Of a stretch of 64,000 nucleotides of DNA, positions 11,175 to 44,923 are shown in pieces. The notes below the pieces were generated by a model. That model was not told the DNA's origin. It ran no database searches and was given only the letters and a program-made list of their open reading frames with translations. The stretch spans positions 1 through 64,000 of the forward strand of contig CACEBC010000008.1 in the NCBI GenBank assembly GCA_902557735.1, given 5' to 3'. This stretch comes from Porticoccaceae bacterium (lineage in GTDB: Bacteria > Pseudomonadota > Gammaproteobacteria > Pseudomonadales > Porticoccaceae). The position numbers and the translations under genes were made by a program. Every line of letters begins with the position of its first letter. The stretch's first letter is position 1.

Positions 11175-11184
11175 AATGGGTGAT
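11175..11184 (+). promoter_or_regulatory. Half-site of the island operator motif
   Basis: AATGGGTGAT lies about 75 bases before the first cyclase gene. It matches the right arm and flank (AATGGGTGAT) of the perfect palindrome at 23750. No left arm is visible here, so this may be chance. Listed because it falls in a promoter region of the same island. Confidence 0.3.
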
Positions 11185-23749: not shown

Positions 23750-23765
23750 CACCCAAAAATGGGTG
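23750..23765. promoter_or_regulatory. Perfect palindromic operator, type site of the island motif
   Basis: CACCCA-AAAA-TGGGTG, 6-bp arms with a 4-base A spacer, in the 192-base gap between the divergent SDR and GH32 genes. Related sites occur at 17533, 27070, 35375 and 36231. The core CCAAAAATGG happens to fit the eukaryotic CArG pattern, which is presumably coincidence. A dimeric regulator is inferred. Confidence 0.65.
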
Positions 23766-23854
23766 ATAAGAGCCCGTCATAGCAGCTAACAGCTTTATTA
23801 TAGTTGCAAAAAAGAGCATCCTAGTGAGCAAGCGTCGAGATAAGGATATAGGCT

Positions 23855-32538: not shown

Positions 32539-33650
32539 TATTTCTCCAACACCTTATTACGGTGAATCAGTTCGAAGTCTATTTCGACACCCAATCCTGG
32601 TGCTTGTGGCGCGTGTACCATCCCGTTTCCATCGACCTCGATGTCATTGATAAGACCATGCTTCTGCGCAGCATCCGGCAAGAGCACTTCAAAATACTCA
32701 CAATTACGTATGGCCATAATGAGATGAAGGTTGGCTACATTCGTCAGAGAATTCCCCCCATGATGCACCTCATAATTCATCTGGAATGTCTCTGCCGTAT
32801 GCGCAGTTTTCAGGCAGGAGGTAAGACCGCCCTTGATTACTGGATCGCCTCGCAGATAGTCGGTCGCCTGCTGCATAATCCAGGGCGCATAGGCCTTTGG
32901 TCCCGTGGAAGGAAGCTCCGTTGCAGCTAAGGGTATTTTTAGCACCTGCTTTAGTTTCACGTAGCCATAGATATCGTCATAAGGCAATGGGTCTTCGTAC
33001 CAATAAAAATCAAGTTCCTCCGCTGCGCGTCCGACTCGAAGGGCGTCCGGGTAGCTGTAGGCCCAGCATGCATCAAGCATCAGTCGGTAGTCATCACCCA
33101 CTGCCTTTCGCACCATCTCACAAATCTTAATATCTAGCAGCGGCTCAGCGGGCGGATGAATTTTGTATGCAGACCAACCCAGTTCCTTGTATTTCAAAGC
33201 CTCCTCCACGTAGTGCTGAGGAGTCTCTAGGATCGCGGAACTTGCATAGGCGGGCACTGAGTCCCTGTAAGAACCCATAAGCTTGTGGATTGGAATGCCC
33301 GCAGCCTTTCCTCCTATATCCCAGAGTGCTATGTCAATTGCGCCAATTATCCGCATAGCATTCCATCCGATTGCCCAGGTTGATAGGTTCTGCCAAATTC
33401 GTTCACGGTGGAGTACATCTTGTCCAACGAGCAGAGGCTTGTATCTTTCTATGATCTGGTTGACATCATTCCCAATTGAGCCAAGCGAAGAGCCCAGGAA
33501 TGCATGGCCCTCTGAGCCGTCCTCAGCAACAATTGTGACCAGCGCCAGATGAGCGTTATGCGAGCCTGAGCTTTTGAAATGCTTTGTATAACTGGTGGCA
33601 GGGATATTTTTCCACTCCCAAACAGTGACCTTAACATTGGAAATTTTCAC
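32538..33650 (-). CDS. Enolase-superfamily enzyme (mandelate racemase type) 2
   Basis: A 370-residue enolase-superfamily protein. SAYKIHPP gives a KxH base, metal ligands are Asp in LMLDACWAY, Glu in YWYEDPLP and Glu in AATELPSTG, and YEVHHGGNS carries a His. This set fits acid-sugar dehydratases. The start is GTG, overlapping the stop of the ADP-ribosylglycohydrolase gene by 4 bases (GTGA), so the two are coupled. Confidence 0.92.
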   Translation of the reverse strand: MKISNVKVTVWEWKNIPATSYTKHFKSSGSHNAHLALVTIVAEDGSEGHAFLGSSLGSIGNDVNQIIERYKPLLVGQDVLHRERIWQNLSTWAIGWNAMRIIGAIDIALWDIGGKAAGIPIHKLMGSYRDSVPAYASSAILETPQHYVEEALKYKELGWSAYKIHPPAEPLLDIKICEMVRKAVGDDYRLMLDACWAYSYPDALRVGRAAEELDFYWYEDPLPYDDIYGYVKLKQVLKIPLAATELPSTGPKAYAPWIMQQATDYLRGDPVIKGGLTSCLKTAHTAETFQMNYEVHHGGNSLTNVANLHLIMAIRNCEYFEVLLPDAAQKHGLINDIEVDGNGMVHAPQAPGLGVEIDFELIHRNKVLEK

Positions 33651-35284
33651 TCTTGTTTCTCCTGATCTTTCGAGACCCTCACCCCACTAACAGGCTGCGC
33701 TCCAGGATAGAAGAAACCCTCCAAAGTGTCGTCATCAATTTCGCCTTCAAAGTCAACCTCGTAATCCCATCCACCCTTGTCAATCGCGAAACTAAACTTC
33801 AGTTCGGGGTGGTTATAGGAGCTAGATGCGAGCTTACTTGGGTCTGGAATGTCCTCGGTGGCATAGCTGCCCATGTCTGTAAACTCTATGATTGCTTGAG
33901 AGAAATTGAGCAGCTGGGTGCCCCAGGCGGACTGGAGTTCCCAGCTCCCCTCTGCGGGCCCTTTTAGCTTTTCTTTTGCAGTTTTTTCCGGAGCAGAGTC
34001 GATCTTCTTGCTAATTGCAAAGGTTCGCTGCGCTAGGTCAGAGATTTTGTTATCGTTCTCGCCGCCAACGGCGGAAAGCAGACGATCATTGAAAACGCCT
34101 ACCCATTTTTCAGGCAGCGACTTCGCACCATCCTTTACGCCTAGGATGGAACCAACCGTTGCGCCGGTGCAGTCTGTGTCCCAGCCACCCCTCACTGTAT
34201 AAACGATACCCTTCTCGAAATCTTTCTCACCATAATAAAGACCCATAACAATTAATGCGGCGTTGTTGATCGTATGCACCCCATGATAGTGCCCATAGTG
34301 CTCGTTGATTTTGACCCAGACATTTTCCCAGTTCTTCTCATGCTGGCACCAAGAAAATGTATTTCGCACACACTCAGCAAGGCGACTCTGAGCGGGTATT
34401 TCCCCAAGTCCAGCGGTTATAATGTCCTCGGATTTGGAGTAAACAAAGGCGGCTGCAATCATCGCGGCGACGAACATTTCACCATAAATACCGTTCTTCT
34501 CGTGCGAGATGGACGCATCTCGAAATGCTAACTCTGCGGCTAGCTGAGGTTTCCCAGCTGCTACATAGCCAAAGATATCGGCACGGATTTGAGCACCTAT
34601 CCACTCACGATAGGGATTGCGGTAGCTTGCTGATTCGGGGGGCCAGATGCTCATAACGAAATTTCGATATGCCGCTTTCTCTGCCGTATAAACCGCCCCA
34701 TAAGACATATTGGCGATCCATATGCTGGCCATGCTTCTCGGCGTCAATTTAGGGCCATAGCGTTCCAGTGCCATTAGCCCGAGTATCGGGTAATCCATAT
34801 CATCGTCCCGGTCCATGTACCTGATATTGCCGCGGGTTGATGGCTTGTGAACGCCTGACATATAGGTATCTGAAAATGGAAGATAGTTGTCGAGCTGCAG
34901 CGAGTTGGTCTCGCGGAGGAAAGTGTCAATTCGGTGCTTTGGCCACCCCTCAACTGGTTTGCCAAGTGCGCATCCGGCGGCCCGGCCAAGCCACCCGCCA
35001 TAGATTCTGTTATAGATCTCAGCATCGTCGCTGGTTACGCTTAGTTCTCGCGGTGCATCGGGACGTTCTGCTTGAATTGCCTCCAAAGTCGACGGTTCGG
35101 TGTAGGGAAAAGAGGGTTCTATGGGCAGATTCACTAATTCTTCATAGAGGCGCTTAAAATCTGTAGTTGAGCCATTCCTTTCGAGCGCAGTAGCGATACG
35201 AGAGGCCATTTCTTCAGTCCTGCAGCCCTCCTCGTTACGTTGTTTCAATTCAAGTTTTATAAGCTTTTGTTCTAGTGAACGCAT
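33647..35284 (-). CDS. ADP-ribosylglycohydrolase-family protein (paralogue 2)
   Basis: A 545-residue paralogue of the protein at 4941. It shares WLGRAAGCALGKPVEG, NPYREWIGAQIRAD and NGIYGEMFVAAMIAAAFV. The first metal site is YMDRDDDMDY and the second GGWDTDCTGATVGS. It is longer at the C-terminus by about 100 residues, a beta-rich extension with GSWELQSAWGTQLLNF that I do not recognise. It starts the minus-strand operon with enolase, SDR and kelch genes. This placement argues for a glycoside- or riboside-cleaving catabolic role rather than protein de-ADP-ribosylation; that is inference. Confidence 0.86.
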   Translation of the reverse strand: MRSLEQKLIKLELKQRNEEGCRTEEMASRIATALERNGSTTDFKRLYEELVNLPIEPSFPYTEPSTLEAIQAERPDAPRELSVTSDDAEIYNRIYGGWLGRAAGCALGKPVEGWPKHRIDTFLRETNSLQLDNYLPFSDTYMSGVHKPSTRGNIRYMDRDDDMDYPILGLMALERYGPKLTPRSMASIWIANMSYGAVYTAEKAAYRNFVMSIWPPESASYRNPYREWIGAQIRADIFGYVAAGKPQLAAELAFRDASISHEKNGIYGEMFVAAMIAAAFVYSKSEDIITAGLGEIPAQSRLAECVRNTFSWCQHEKNWENVWVKINEHYGHYHGVHTINNAALIVMGLYYGEKDFEKGIVYTVRGGWDTDCTGATVGSILGVKDGAKSLPEKWVGVFNDRLLSAVGGENDNKISDLAQRTFAISKKIDSAPEKTAKEKLKGPAEGSWELQSAWGTQLLNFSQAIIEFTDMGSYATEDIPDPSKLASSSYNHPELKFSFAIDKGGWDYEVDFEGEIDDDTLEGFFYPGAQPVSGVRVSKDQEKQE

Positions 35285-35363: not shown

Positions 35364-35391
35364 ATGGGTTTGTCACCCATAAAAAATGGTG
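35364..35391. promoter_or_regulatory. Compound island operator before the minus-strand operon
   Basis: ATGGGT-ttgtc-ACCCAT is a perfect inverted repeat at 35364-35380, and its right arm continues into CACCCATAAAAAATGGTG, a relaxed copy of the type palindrome. The compound layout, with one arm shared by two inverted repeats, resembles the site at 27053. It lies 80 bases before the operon start and also faces the plus-strand genes. Confidence 0.55.
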
Positions 35392-35577: not shown

Positions 35578-36210
35578 TTGTTTGTTATCGATATGAATAG
35601 TGTTAAACAGGTCGGCGAATTCGGCTCAAAAGCATGGTGTGAGGCATGTGCCGCCTTCGGCGTAGAGATTCTGAAAGCATCAGATCTTCCGGGGGATTTG
35701 TCATGGGGTTTTAGTGAAATCTATACCTCGCCGCCCTCTAGGCTAGTCAGCGATGATTGGCCCGTGTCTGGATATCACTTCATGATACATGAGGGGCTAG
35801 TGTCAGGCGGAGGAGGTGTTACAGACGCTTGTCTCGCGTTGCCCGGCTTCCATGTCAGGATGCGCTGGGCCTACATTTGTAACCAGTCGAGCACGAAATA
35901 CGGGTTTGAGGGCCAGCGGCAGCGAAGTTCAGAGGAGAATGTGCTTAAGGAACAAATGGCCAATTATCTTGGTTTTGAGCCCAACCTTGGGGCAATAGAC
36001 AACCCTGTTTGGCCAAAACCTATAATCGCTGCTTTAAGTGTTGGTGTCGAAGAGGGTGCGGGCTTGCACAATATTGCGGCAAGCCTCCAAATGTCTTCGC
36101 CGGAGTTTTCTGGTCTCCCAGTTACGGAAATGGGAGTGCCAGAATTTTCATTGATGAGCGATAGCCAGAAAGAATTTTTCTTGGCCTTGTGCGATATAAA
36201 TAGATCATGA
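35578..36210 (+). CDS. Conserved-looking protein of unknown function
   Basis: About 210 residues from TTG 35578, chosen because GGAGGG at 35566-35571 lies 6 bases before it. The frame extends back to an ATG at 35386 that lies inside the operator, which makes that start unlikely. I do not recognise the family. No signal peptide or membrane segment. It has a Cys-rich start (WCEACAAFG), a Gly-rich loop (HEGLVSGGGGVTDACL), and a late stretch GVEEGAGLHNIAASLQ. Its position between the operator and the transposase-like gene suggests a role in regulation or in the pathway; neither is supported further. Confidence 0.65.
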   Translation: MFVIDMNSVKQVGEFGSKAWCEACAAFGVEILKASDLPGDLSWGFSEIYTSPPSRLVSDDWPVSGYHFMIHEGLVSGGGGVTDACLALPGFHVRMRWAYICNQSSTKYGFEGQRQRSSEENVLKEQMANYLGFEPNLGAIDNPVWPKPIIAALSVGVEEGAGLHNIAASLQMSSPEFSGLPVTEMGVPEFSLMSDSQKEFFLALCDINRS

Positions 36211-36295: not shown

Positions 36296-37483
36296 ATGTC
36301 AAACCTTGACTCCAGGCTATATAAATTTGCAGATTACCTCTGTTCGCAGAGATTTGGGAAGCCCGTTGGAAAAGTTGACGAAAAGTTCATAAAAAACATG
36401 TTCACCGGCATTTGGCAGACGCGATCAGTCAACTTAACGGAGATAGCTCGCTCGCTTAATGAAAATATTCGACTGCACGCTACTCACAAGCGCCTTTCTC
36501 GAAATTTAGATAATCTCGAGCTACAAGAACGGTTATCATCGGGTTTGCTCAAAATGGTCGCTGAGCATGTGAAACCAGAAACACGTTTGTTGGTGCATGT
36601 TCACGAGATCACGAAGAAGTATGCATGCAAGATCGAATTTCTGCCGGATAAAGAGGCTGATTCCAAAGCAGGTTTCAAGGTCTGCGAGATTCTGGCAACC
36701 CATCCGAATTCAAAGGACTATATGCCCATGCTGGCTCGCGTCTGGTCTGACCAGACGCCCCAATATCAGTGCGACGAGATGGAAATTCAAAAAGCAGTTA
36801 AACAAGTTCTTGAGGCAACAGAAAACAGAGGCATATTGCATTTTGACGATCGAAGCTTAAAAGGTAATTTAATTCAGCAGTTAATGCGCGATAGCAAAGC
36901 TAATTTTGTTGCCATGGTGGACGATGTTAATTTGGTTGTAAACTGCAGGGGCGTTGAGGCAACACTATCGGCGCTTTGCGAGGATATCGAAACGCCCTAT
37001 GGTAAAATGATGTTTAAACTCGTTCCAGAGGGGGTGGCAGGAACCTCATCTCAAACCGATATGGATCTTTTTATGCACGTAGGTTCCCTTCCTGTTAAAT
37101 TGCTTGGAAACCCTCGAAGGCTCAGTCTGATCGCATTAAAATCAAAAAATCGCTTGGTCGGTGATCATGTGACGCCCCTTATTACTTCGCTTACCCGACT
37201 GCGATCCAGAAAGGCTTTAATGGGATTGGTTGAGTCATTTCTCTCGATACATGATGTAATTGGTCTCCATAGCGAACTACGAGATCAATTTAATCCATCT
37301 GGGTTCCGTGTCCTAACATACAATCGTCTGCAGCTACTATTGACCATGCTTCAGGCGGTGATATGTGCGGAATCATCTTTGCCTGGGAAGGTCGCTGTTG
37401 TTGACCAACAATATTCCAGGCAACCACATGATGGAGATTTAACTCGGACTTATTATCGTCCCGAAGAGGGGTTGGAGGCTTAG
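36296..37483 (+). CDS. IS4-family transposase-like protein, catalytic residues lost
   Basis: 395 residues, full-length and uninterrupted. The order of segments follows an IS4-type transposase: N-terminal IWQTRSVNLTEIARSL and THKRLSRNLDN, then VHEITKKYACKIEFL where active enzymes have LDxTDIxKPYAKKMEYL, then ILHFDDRSLKGN, and a C-terminal FRVLTYNRLQLLLTML. The first catalytic Asp is replaced by His/Glu, and the YREK-region Glu is missing (LSIHDVIGLHSE where RWxxEExFR is expected). Only the second Asp may remain. No terminal inverted repeats or target duplications were seen. AGAGGATAAG before the ATG is a plausible ribosome site, and the next gene starts 3 bases after its stop. I infer a domesticated DNA-binding protein. 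Confidence 0.72.
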   Translation: MSNLDSRLYKFADYLCSQRFGKPVGKVDEKFIKNMFTGIWQTRSVNLTEIARSLNENIRLHATHKRLSRNLDNLELQERLSSGLLKMVAEHVKPETRLLVHVHEITKKYACKIEFLPDKEADSKAGFKVCEILATHPNSKDYMPMLARVWSDQTPQYQCDEMEIQKAVKQVLEATENRGILHFDDRSLKGNLIQQLMRDSKANFVAMVDDVNLVVNCRGVEATLSALCEDIETPYGKMMFKLVPEGVAGTSSQTDMDLFMHVGSLPVKLLGNPRRLSLIALKSKNRLVGDHVTPLITSLTRLRSRKALMGLVESFLSIHDVIGLHSELRDQFNPSGFRVLTYNRLQLLLTMLQAVICAESSLPGKVAVVDQQYSRQPHDGDLTRTYYRPEEGLEA

Positions 37484-37485
37484 CA

Positions 37486-38367
37486 TTGGCTAGTGAAAGC
37501 ATGCAGGCAATACTGAGTGCCTATAAGAGTCAAGGCGCGAAGACAAAGAATCTGGGTTCCATGGAGGAGCAACGCGAGGGCTTCGACAGGCATATGGCCC
37601 ACCTGCAGCTTCCGAGAGGTATTGTGACAGAGGACTTTTTTTTGGCTGGGCGTCCAGCAAGACGTTTTCAGCCAAACGGGCTAGAAACTGAGGAGGTAGT
37701 CCTGTACCTCCATGGCGGAGGATATAGAACGGGCTCTCTAGACTCTCACAGTTCGGTCATGGGGCACCTAGCGGCTACCTGCAATGCGGGGGTAATTGGC
37801 CTGGACTATCGGTTGGCACCTGAAAATCCCTTTCCAGCGGCGCTGGACGATTCGGTAGCGGCATTTGTCGAGATTTGTACATCCTTTGATGCTCATAAAA
37901 CAATGATTGCAGGCGACTCGGCTGGCGGTGGTCTTGCTCTTGCGTGCACGCTTAGGTTAAAGGAAAAAAATATGCCCTTGGCTGGCTGTCTGGCGCTCCT
38001 ATCGCCGGCTACCGATCTGACTATGAGTGGGGATAGCTACGGAGAGTTCCGTGAACTGTGGGCTGATGATTGCCTGCTTTACTCGGGCGATTATCCGCTT
38101 GACACGGTTGGGATATCTCCTTTGTTCGGAGATATGACTGGACTTCCGCCAATATTGATTCATGTGGCGAATGACGAGCCGTTACTAAGTGATTCTATTG
38201 GGCTTGAAAGGCGCGCTACAGATATGGGTGTCACTGTTGAGCTGAAACTTTTCCACGATGCCTTCCACTGCTTCCAGATTTTTACAGACTTACCGGAAGC
38301 TCAGGACGCACTGGCTGACATCGGACGATTCTTCAAACTAAATATCCGAGGAATGGTCGGTGATTGA
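37486..38367 (+). CDS. Alpha/beta hydrolase, hormone-sensitive-lipase family
   Basis: A 293-residue hydrolase with the HSL motifs: oxyanion loop YLHGGGYRTGSL, nucleophile IAGDSAGGGLAL (Ser), Asp in HVANDEPL and His in FHDAFHCFQ. The start is TTG 37486, since GGAGG at 37474-37478 lies 7 bases before it; an ATG five codons in is weaker. It directly follows the transposase-like gene and overlaps the next gene by 8 bases. It probably cuts a small ester or lactone in the cytoplasm. Confidence 0.9.
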   Translation: MASESMQAILSAYKSQGAKTKNLGSMEEQREGFDRHMAHLQLPRGIVTEDFFLAGRPARRFQPNGLETEEVVLYLHGGGYRTGSLDSHSSVMGHLAATCNAGVIGLDYRLAPENPFPAALDDSVAAFVEICTSFDAHKTMIAGDSAGGGLALACTLRLKEKNMPLAGCLALLSPATDLTMSGDSYGEFRELWADDCLLYSGDYPLDTVGISPLFGDMTGLPPILIHVANDEPLLSDSIGLERRATDMGVTVELKLFHDAFHCFQIFTDLPEAQDALADIGRFFKLNIRGMVGD

Positions 38368-39022
38368 CCCGGATTTCGAAAGGGTTGAGTTTGAGTACAA
38401 CCGTGATGGTTTTGCCATACTTCCTGCTTATTTGGATAGCTCAGAGCTCAACATCTTGAGAGATCGGGCGATTCCCTTGGCGAGGAAGCTACTGCACTTT
38501 GAGGCTGGCGGAGGTAGGTTTCGAAACCTGCTCAAGTCCTTGCAACGGCATGACATCTGGTTTGACACCCAACTCAAGGAGGGACGCCATGTACCCTTGA
38601 TTAATCATCTCATGGGCGGCGATGCTGTTGGTGCTTCTGCCGCCTGGTTTGATCGTCCAAAGGGAGAAATATCGGGGATCGAACCCCATGTGGACGCAAT
38701 TAGTGAACGTGGTTCTGCAAGCGCAGGAGCGACTATCTGGTTTGCCTTGGATCCTGTCGATATGGGAAATGGTTGCGTGCATTACCTGAAAGGATCTCAT
38801 ACAAAAAACTATCCCGGCGGGACCTGGGTGGCCGGCGTGAACAAGCAGGCTGAGAATGCTTTCGCCGCAGAATTGAATCCCGGTGATGCAGTAATTCACA
38901 GTGCCTATACGGTCCATTGGTCTGGCGGAAATTCCTCAGGCCGCCCTAGGCGGGCGATTTCTTATTTTTATCTGAGCCAATCTGCCTATCACTTATATCA
39001 AGAAAAAGGGAAGAAAAAATGA
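38360..39022 (+). CDS. Phytanoyl-CoA dioxygenase (PhyH) family
   Basis: A 220-residue Fe(II)/2-oxoglutarate oxygenase. The iron site is HVD in EPHVDAISE with the second His in YTVHWSGGNSSGRPRRA, where the Arg binds 2-oxoglutarate. GTG start, overlapping the hydrolase end by 8 bases. It should hydroxylate a small organic substrate; the substrate is unknown. The aldolase start overlaps its stop (ATGA), so three genes are coupled. Confidence 0.88.
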   Translation: MIDPDFERVEFEYNRDGFAILPAYLDSSELNILRDRAIPLARKLLHFEAGGGRFRNLLKSLQRHDIWFDTQLKEGRHVPLINHLMGGDAVGASAAWFDRPKGEISGIEPHVDAISERGSASAGATIWFALDPVDMGNGCVHYLKGSHTKNYPGGTWVAGVNKQAENAFAAELNPGDAVIHSAYTVHWSGGNSSGRPRRAISYFYLSQSAYHLYQEKGKKK

Positions 39023-39672
39023 CAGATTTTGACGAAGCGTTACTTAGGAAAGCACTCGTTAGGGCCTACAATCAAGTCGAGGAGAAAGGCCTGATGAACC
39101 AATCTTCTGGTAACTTAAGCTGCAGAGTACCCGGCGGAATGCTGATTTCTTGCACTGGGGCGTCAGCCGAAAACCTTACGGAAGATCGTGTGGTTATGGT
39201 TGCTGATGACGGGAGCTTTACTGGAAAGTTAAAGCCGTCGACTGAATGGCGGATGCACTTGGAAGTTTATCGACGACATGATAAAGCAAATGCTGTCGTG
39301 CATACTCACTCGGATTATTGTGTGGCGATGGCCTGCAATAATCTGCCGCTGCCTGGTTTTCACTATATGGTTGGTCTGTTTGGCAATAGCAGTGTTCCCT
39401 GTGTCCCGTACTCGGTTTTTGGGTCACAAGAGCTTGCGAACGACGCAGCAGAGGGTTTAACTGATCAGGCGGCGTGTCTCCTCGGAAGTCATGGGATGAT
39501 CTGCCGTGGTGGTGATTTCGATATTGCGGTTGGGCATGCAGAGCGACTGGAGATCATCTGCAAGCACTATGTGCTGGCCAAATCCCTTGGCGAGCCAGAT
39601 CTTTTAACAGATGAGCAGTGGGACGAGTTTTTTGGAAGGGCGAAGAAGGTCGCCTACTCTAACTTTATTTGA
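39019..39672 (+). CDS. Class II aldolase/adducin family (FucA/OtnC-like)
   Basis: A 217-residue zinc aldolase-type protein. It has NQSSGNLSCRV, the Glu in KPSTEWRMHLEVYR (catalytic in FucA), the zinc pair in VVHTHSDYC and a later His in LLGSHGMICRGG. Length equals FucA and OtnC. It either cleaves a ketose phosphate or decarboxylates a 3-oxo-tetronate phosphate; the OtnK-like kinase at 9856 makes the second reading attractive. It ends the four-gene plus-strand unit. Confidence 0.9.
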   Translation: MTDFDEALLRKALVRAYNQVEEKGLMNQSSGNLSCRVPGGMLISCTGASAENLTEDRVVMVADDGSFTGKLKPSTEWRMHLEVYRRHDKANAVVHTHSDYCVAMACNNLPLPGFHYMVGLFGNSSVPCVPYSVFGSQELANDAAEGLTDQAACLLGSHGMICRGGDFDIAVGHAERLEIICKHYVLAKSLGEPDLLTDEQWDEFFGRAKKVAYSNFI

Positions 39673-44050: not shown

Positions 44051-44923
44051 TCAGTCTATAGACGTTCTAAGAGACGCAAGGCTGCCACGGAGACGCTCTA
44101 AGTGCGAATCTAATGTAGGGCCTTTCTTCTGCGCGACGCCTATAGCCAGCGCGTCTATTACGGCAAGGTGGGCTATGCGGGAAGACAAAGGCGTGTAGAT
44201 TTGGTCATCATCCTGCGAATCAACCTGAATTGGTATTGTTGCTGCGGCTGCGACTGGAGAGTTAGTTGGAGCAATGCCGATAACTATACCGCCCGAGTTC
44301 TTCACTAATTCCATAGAGTCCAGCAGCGCAATACTGCGTCCAGATTGAGAGATGGCAACGGCCACATCGCCGGGTTCTAAAGAGGTTGCTGACATATTTT
44401 GTAAATGTGGATCGGCATATGCGGAAGCGGTTATTTGCAATCGGAAAAATTTGTGTTGCGCATCAAACGCAACAGCTGCGGATGCTCCAAATCCATAAAA
44501 CTCAACACGTCTCGAGTTATGGATGGCTGCAATGGCTGCATCGAGATTTTCTAAGATAAGGTTATCTCGGACTTTGAGCAATGTATCTATGGTTGTGTCG
44601 AAAACCTTGAATGTATAATCTTTTATCGAATCAGTATCTGTTACAGCAATGCGACCATGACTAGGACTGGAAGCTAACTGCTGAGCAAGTGCCAGTTTAA
44701 AGTCTTGGAATCCGCGACATCCTATGGCTCGACAAAATCGCACGACAGTGGGTTCGCTGACTTGGGCTTTTTGAGCTAGGTCAACGATGCGCATTCTTAC
44801 GACTGGTATCAAATTTTGTAAAACGAATTCTGCAACCTTTCGCTCAGACTTTCTCAACTTAGGCAATTCTTCATTAATCGATTGTGTTAGCAACGCCGGT
44901 TTCATGTGAGTCACACTAACCAT
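44051..44923 (-). CDS. RpiR/MurR-family transcriptional regulator (HexR-like)
   Basis: A 290-residue regulator: an N-terminal winged helix (KLRKSERKVAEFVLQN, AQKAQVSEPTVVRFCRAIG) and a C-terminal SIS sugar-phosphate domain (RRVEFYGFGASAAVA, DVAVAISQSGRSIALLDS). This layout is that of HexR, which senses 2-keto-3-deoxy-6-phosphogluconate in gammaproteobacteria. It is the only classical transcription factor I see beside Zur, and it lies outside the accessory island. The ATG at 44905 is an alternative start. A putative HexR-like site overlaps the start. Confidence 0.88.
   Translation of the reverse strand: MVSVTHMKPALLTQSINEELPKLRKSERKVAEFVLQNLIPVVRMRIVDLAQKAQVSEPTVVRFCRAIGCRGFQDFKLALAQQLASSPSHGRIAVTDTDSIKDYTFKVFDTTIDTLLKVRDNLILENLDAAIAAIHNSRRVEFYGFGASAAVAFDAQHKFFRLQITASAYADPHLQNMSATSLEPGDVAVAISQSGRSIALLDSMELVKNSGGIVIGIAPTNSPVAAAATIPIQVDSQDDDQIYTPLSSRIAHLAVIDALAIGVAQKKGPTLDSHLERLRGSLASLRTSID

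Follow-up and report, generated by a model that had tools for sequence, protein, structure and literature searches.

What is an apparently full-length transposase gene doing inside a catabolic operon? The question is raised by an open reading frame of 395 codons in a 64,000-nucleotide stretch of Porticoccaceae DNA (the window), which the initial annotation had described as an intact IS4-type transposase with its catalytic residues gone. Our analysis firmly supports the view that the product of this frame is a domesticated, cleavage-dead transposase of the IS4/Tn5 type. We further predict that the protein probably acts as a local regulator of transcription through end-like operators of the surrounding catabolic cluster, a role of which we infer every regulatory step. 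The features discussed below are collected in Table 1.

Table 1. Positions of the transposase-like gene, its conserved and altered codons, its neighbours and the operator-like sites in the window.
Feature	Position	Strand	Remarks
Operator-like motif copy	11177..11183	+	83 nt upstream of cyclase gene 11260
Operator-like motif copy	23760..23766	+	95 nt upstream of GH32 gene 23855
ADP-ribosylglycohydrolase-fold gene (ADPRGH)	33647..35284	-	heads divergent catabolic operon
Operator-like motif TGGGTGA	35373..35379	-	points at ADPRGH operon; inverted partner of 35500 site
Operator-like motif TTTTATGGGTGAA	35500..35506	+	78 nt upstream of partner gene
Orphan partner gene	35578..36210	+	210 aa, TTG start; directly upstream of transposase-like gene
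Operator-like motif AAAATGGGTGAA	36236..36242	+	60 nt upstream of transposase-like gene; also in L003-L005
Transposase-like gene, catalytically dead, IS4/Tn5 fold	36296..37483	+	intact, ATG start, 395 aa
N-terminal segment, counterpart of transposase DNA-binding domain	36368..36511 (codons 25-72)	+	most conserved part
First catalytic Asp position, His101	36596..36598 (codon 101)	+	alignment of LILDPSDL with LLVHVHEI
Second catalytic Asp, kept as D184	36845..36847 (codon 184)	+	alignment
YREK Arg position, Ile	37247..37249 (codon 318)	+	YFSRWRIE against FLSIHDVI (window)
Catalytic Glu (YREK) position, Ile322	37259..37261 (codon 322)	+	alignment
Alpha/beta hydrolase gene (HSL-like)	37486..38367	+	lineage-specific insert in operon
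PhyH-type dioxygenase gene	38360..39022	+	lasting downstream neighbour
Class II aldolase gene (FucA-like)	39019..39672	+	lasting downstream neighbour

Judging from sequence and profile comparisons, the protein is homologous to IS4-type transposases. None of the curated libraries that we scanned names it. No Pfam family matched above cutoff, the NCBIfam model NF033591 (IS4_2) reached an E value of 0.08 only, and a single-sequence search returned no PHROG and no PDB sequence match; such genes thus hide below annotation thresholds. A profile built from 12 orthologues matched the transposase of an IS element in genome G538 at E 3.6e-47, and it also matched IS transposases in other Pseudomonadota families (G506, G649 and others). 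The window protein alone found the G538 transposase by single-sequence blastp at E 6e-27, and a mixed profile reached the Tn5 transposase at E 1.5e-6, with corresponding regions aligned. A structure model was computed with AlphaFold2 on nine sequences and was weak (mean pLDDT 55.7). The top PDB match of this weak model was the full-length Tn5 transposase (Foldseek E 4e-7), and structure 1b7e was among its fold matches. Structural alignment of the same weak model with Tn5 gave a Z score of 15.1 and an rmsd of 4.6 over 277 residues, spanning residues 3-368. The RNase H-like core and the Tn5-type overall fold are both present in the model, at the pLDDT of 55.7 given above. Results from the profile, blastp and fold matches bear out the IS4-type identity that had been proposed, and the frame is intact from its ATG as claimed.

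The initial annotation had also stated that the first Asp and the Glu of the YREK region are replaced, and this was confirmed when the catalytic positions were placed by alignment with intact IS relatives and with Thermus IS proteins. We take the retained D184 to be D188 of Tn5 and the position of Ile322 to be that of Tn5 E326. In Tn5 and Tn10, the DDE triad is completed by the Glu of YREK (PMC2705183). That Glu has been lost in all 12 orthologues, where Ile, Val or Leu stands in its place. The first Asp position holds His in the genus of the window and Thr in the sister genus, and the Arg of YREK is replaced by Ile, Met or Lys across the orthologues. At the Lys position the orthologues have Arg or Lys (the window reads FLSIHDVI...R), and the protein as a whole lacks the YREK signature. 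A complete DDE set was looked for in the alignment with intact relatives, and in 12 of 12 orthologues the triad proved incomplete, with the second Asp alone kept. The N-terminal segment, which presumably corresponds to the end-binding domain of Tn5, averages 78% identity among six divergent orthologues, compared with 31-66% elsewhere in the protein. Its likeness to the IS enzyme is likewise the highest within the protein, with 46% identity to the G538 IS transposase. That conservation peaks in this segment speaks for DNA binding having been retained.

Twelve of the 144 related genomes searched carry the gene, each as one full-length copy without internal stops. Nine of these genomes belong to the same genus and three to a sister genus within the Porticoccaceae (44-86% identity), and eight of the orthologues lie on public Porticoccaceae/Cellvibrionales MAG or single-cell contigs. 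Relatives of the dead form were absent from the plasmid and viral collections searched. The home genome sequence (1.95 Mb, 68.7% complete) holds this one copy and no second. Neither a complete DDE set nor related copies with terminal repeats in the genome, the two findings that would have refuted the initial annotation, was observed. The lack of flanking inverted repeats, which had been claimed from the start, was upheld by a repeat search that returned only imperfect pairs of 14-17 nt with one or both arms inside the gene. The gene thus lacks both marks by which an IS4 insertion sequence would be recognized, terminal inverted repeats and the presence of several mobile copies.

A long stem leads to a single clade that comprises the 12 orthologues. 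Their identity matrix correlates with the partner matrix (r 0.94) and the aldolase matrix (r 0.91), as would be expected from vertical descent. Since the catalytic losses are common to all 12 members of this one clade, they most simply predate the split of the two genera, and the protein has been kept since. Pairwise dN/dS among close orthologue pairs was about 0.08-0.19, which is comparable to the PhyH neighbour and above the aldolase. The gene therefore has what is expected of a domesticated transposase, namely immobile, syntenic orthologues in 12 genomes of two genera (11 besides the home genome) and purifying selection. The protein had been interpreted initially as a domesticated DNA-binding protein. 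Of this interpretation, domestication is well supported, and DNA binding is supported indirectly, by the conserved N-terminal segment and an operator-like motif.

Gene order is kept in all loci with enough flanking sequence: the divergent ADPRGH operon is followed by the orphan partner gene, the transposase-like gene, the PhyH gene and the class II aldolase gene. In one subgroup, the ADPRGH operon is separated from the orphan gene by an additional gene. The transposase-like gene is a member of an operon, as had been proposed; however, the neighbours that persist are the orphan gene on its upstream side, PhyH and the class II aldolase, and not the hydrolase. The hydrolase gene is indeed adjacent in the window, but with two bases rather than three between the stop, which ends at 37483, and the TTG at 37486. 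The partner gene starts at about 35578 (TTG) and not at 35386. Its product belongs to no known family, with no match in Pfam, PHROGs or PDB, and its structure model, with a pLDDT of 47.5, was set aside. Of 51 genomes, the partner gene occurs in precisely the 12 that have the transposase-like gene, and it is absent from the 368 other genomes sampled across the class. The two genes behave as a unit.

In every locus, a motif of the form W(n)TGGGTGA occurs upstream of the transposase-like or partner genes, often as an inverted pair. The 8-mer TGGGTGAA was present in six of six upstream regions compared, two of which come from one subgroup, so that not all are fully independent. A GC-rich 7-mer common to all six regions was found in none of 1000 dinucleotide shuffles. 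All 26 motif sites have A/T at the three bases before TGGGTGA, and all 26 point to a downstream gene, 25 of them at 58-110 nt before the start and one (L006) just inside the annotated start. Divergent genes often carry an inverted pair of sites. In the home genome sequence, four of the approximately seven gene-proximal intergenic matches lie in the window, which makes up 3% of that sequence, and matches elsewhere are mostly inside coding sequence. We rejected the possibility that the motif is simply a -35 element, as no -10 was found at a fixed spacing. Most window genes from the start to about 44 kb were scanned, and no helix-turn-helix regulator was present among them, the first being RpiR at 44054. 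The genes scanned code for enzymes and TonB receptors, apart from two small ORFs that had no Pfam match. We regard the transposase-like protein as the best candidate for a local regulator.

The nearest sequence relatives of the dead protein are mobile, uncurated IS4-like elements (G538, G506/G649/G705 and Thermus plasmids), with the G538 transposase being about 26% identical over 344 residues. In contrast to the dead gene, these elements have an intact DDE triad and YREK (in those aligned), terminal repeats and a scattered distribution. The G538 element is bounded by perfect 18-bp inverted repeats CAGGACTTTCCCCAAAAA, with the right end TTTTTGGGGAAAGTCCTG; other related mobile IS elements end in AAAAATGGGGAGACTCCTG and the Thermus elements in TTTTGGGTAAAGCCCTG. 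The operator-like sites and the IS ends have a W(n)TGGG core in common, in the same outward orientation. When scored against an IS-end matrix, the mean of the sites was above all 2000 column permutations, but single sites had p values of only about 0.001-0.02 against random 21-mers, with some sites scoring lower still. The best IS-end score per upstream region was not exceptional for most loci. This likeness is modest, and it is suggestive of sites that resemble, or may descend from, transposon ends. A scan with the IS-end matrix did not single out the operators, which ranked 125th and 130th of 128k window positions. Close to its right end, the G670 IS has an exact TTTTGGGTGA, which consists mostly of the last transposase codons and the stop and hence was not counted as evidence. 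A Deinococcus relative (L118) was left out because none of its inverted repeats bears a clear likeness to the other ends. The uncurated IS element of the IS4 kind at L049:2862-4323 has perfect 18-bp inverted repeats and is matched by curated IS4 models only far below cutoff.

A mechanism can be proposed that begins with the capture of an IS4/Tn5-type transposase in an ancestor of the two Porticoccaceae genera. Having lost its catalytic Asp and Glu, the enzyme would have been retained by the host as one of its own proteins. Its preserved N-terminal domain would bind the W(n)TGGGTGA sites, which would be descended from, or resemble, the ancestral transposon ends. Between the divergent operons, the protein would bind inverted pairs as a synapsed dimer without cutting, much as transposases do on two ends. 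The bound dimer would then regulate the divergent catabolic operons and its own gene, with the partner protein serving as a co-regulator or effector sensor. More tentatively, it is possible that a whole DDE transposase has been converted, together with its ends, to a sequence-specific regulator, with end-like inverted pairs as its operators, that works with an orphan partner in a marine catabolic cluster.

It is rather unlikely, in our opinion, that the domesticated transposase has some other role, either as a DNA-bridging or nucleoid protein or as an enzyme or sensor in a complex with its partner, and that TGGGTGA is read by another regulator. The strict co-inheritance of the partner and the retention of most of the fold, beyond the DNA-binding domain, would suit such a role. 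So would the enrichment of the motif in genomes without the pair: its count exceeds that of the reversed control in genomes without the transposase-like gene, G002 and G013 among them, and this protein may therefore not be the only one to use it. For the same reason, motif frequency was not decisive as a marker of gene presence. However, gene-proximal intergenic copies cluster in this region and are found at the transposase-like gene in every genome. An AsnC/Lrp gene elsewhere was considered as the source of the reader. The motif lies upstream of this gene and overlaps its start codon; close orthologues were found only in G000, G007 and G011, and since several site-bearing genomes have none, AsnC/Lrp is not a general reader of the motif.

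With regulation by the transposase-like protein still the preferred reading, we consider it improbable that the protein is an RNase H-fold enzyme whose active site has been remodelled and which is still able to cut or join nucleic acid. D184, D185, D255, D257 and H261 are invariant in all orthologues, as such an enzyme might require, but the genus-specific His or Thr at the first Asp and the Ile, Val or Leu at the Glu leave the ancestral positions without a conserved substitute triad. Even less credible is a dominant-negative inhibitor of active IS elements, comparable to the Tn5 inhibitor protein, the established case of a dead transposase that poisons transposition. A full-length dead transposase that still binds ends would have this effect, and structure 1b7e is one of the fold matches; nevertheless, the home genome has no second relative, the matching related genomes hold one dead copy each, and the gene is kept inside a metabolic operon. 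Both proteins are non-catalytic derivatives of an IS4-fold transposase, but the Tn5 inhibitor is N-terminally truncated and encoded by a live element, whereas the Porticoccaceae protein is full-length, point-inactivated and host-fixed. A decaying IS remnant that is open by chance would account for the missing terminal repeats, but it is refuted by the dN/dS of 0.08-0.19 and by 12 genomes without stops down to 44% identity.

Compared with IS4/Tn5 (IS50) transposases, the protein has the full-length fold (Z 15.1), D184 at the second Asp, the N-terminal DNA-binding segment and an aligned YREK-region helix. In contrast to them, it has lost the first Asp, the YREK Arg and the Glu in all orthologues, and its gene is single-copy, without terminal repeats and fixed in an operon. 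Transcription factors derived from transposases are well known in eukaryotes. The plant factors FHY3 and FAR1 are of eukaryotic, Mutator-like origin. They are transposase-derived DNA-binding regulators kept by the host (PMC6000157). Their function is proven, whereas we infer that of the Porticoccaceae protein. The known bacterial parallel comes from the TnpB nuclease: the TldR proteins are TnpB-derived, RNA-guided repressors, and hence bacterial transcription factors from a transposon nuclease (PMC13418256). TldR works with a guide RNA, TnpB itself being an RNA-guided nuclease, whereas the dead DDE transposase presumably reads DNA with its own domain. In a review on the recruitment of prokaryotic mobile elements, there is no IS4 case among those named (PMC8987985). 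In the literature searched, which was covered in part, we found no description of a regulator domesticated from a bacterial DDE transposase, and this is weak evidence of novelty. If our prediction is correct, the retention, in a free-living bacterium, of a whole DDE transposase along with end-like operators would represent the same route in bacteria. The mobile relatives, the dead orthologues and the candidate operators are all available for a direct test.

Some additional observations concern the neighbouring genes. Several ADP-ribosylglycohydrolase-fold paralogues occur per genome (33647-35284 and 4941-6335 in the window), near sugar-acid or other catabolic genes where seen, and this suggests a catabolic role for the fold in these bacteria. 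The inserted gene of the one subgroup (L006:5554-7134, and L028) encodes 526 aa, has its own inverted motif pair and is weakly similar to the sulfatase fragment at 69-953 of the window. Lastly, the hydrolase gene is complete in the window. It is shortened in L003, apparently a short remnant in L004 and L005, and absent elsewhere, and seems to be in the process of being lost from the operon.
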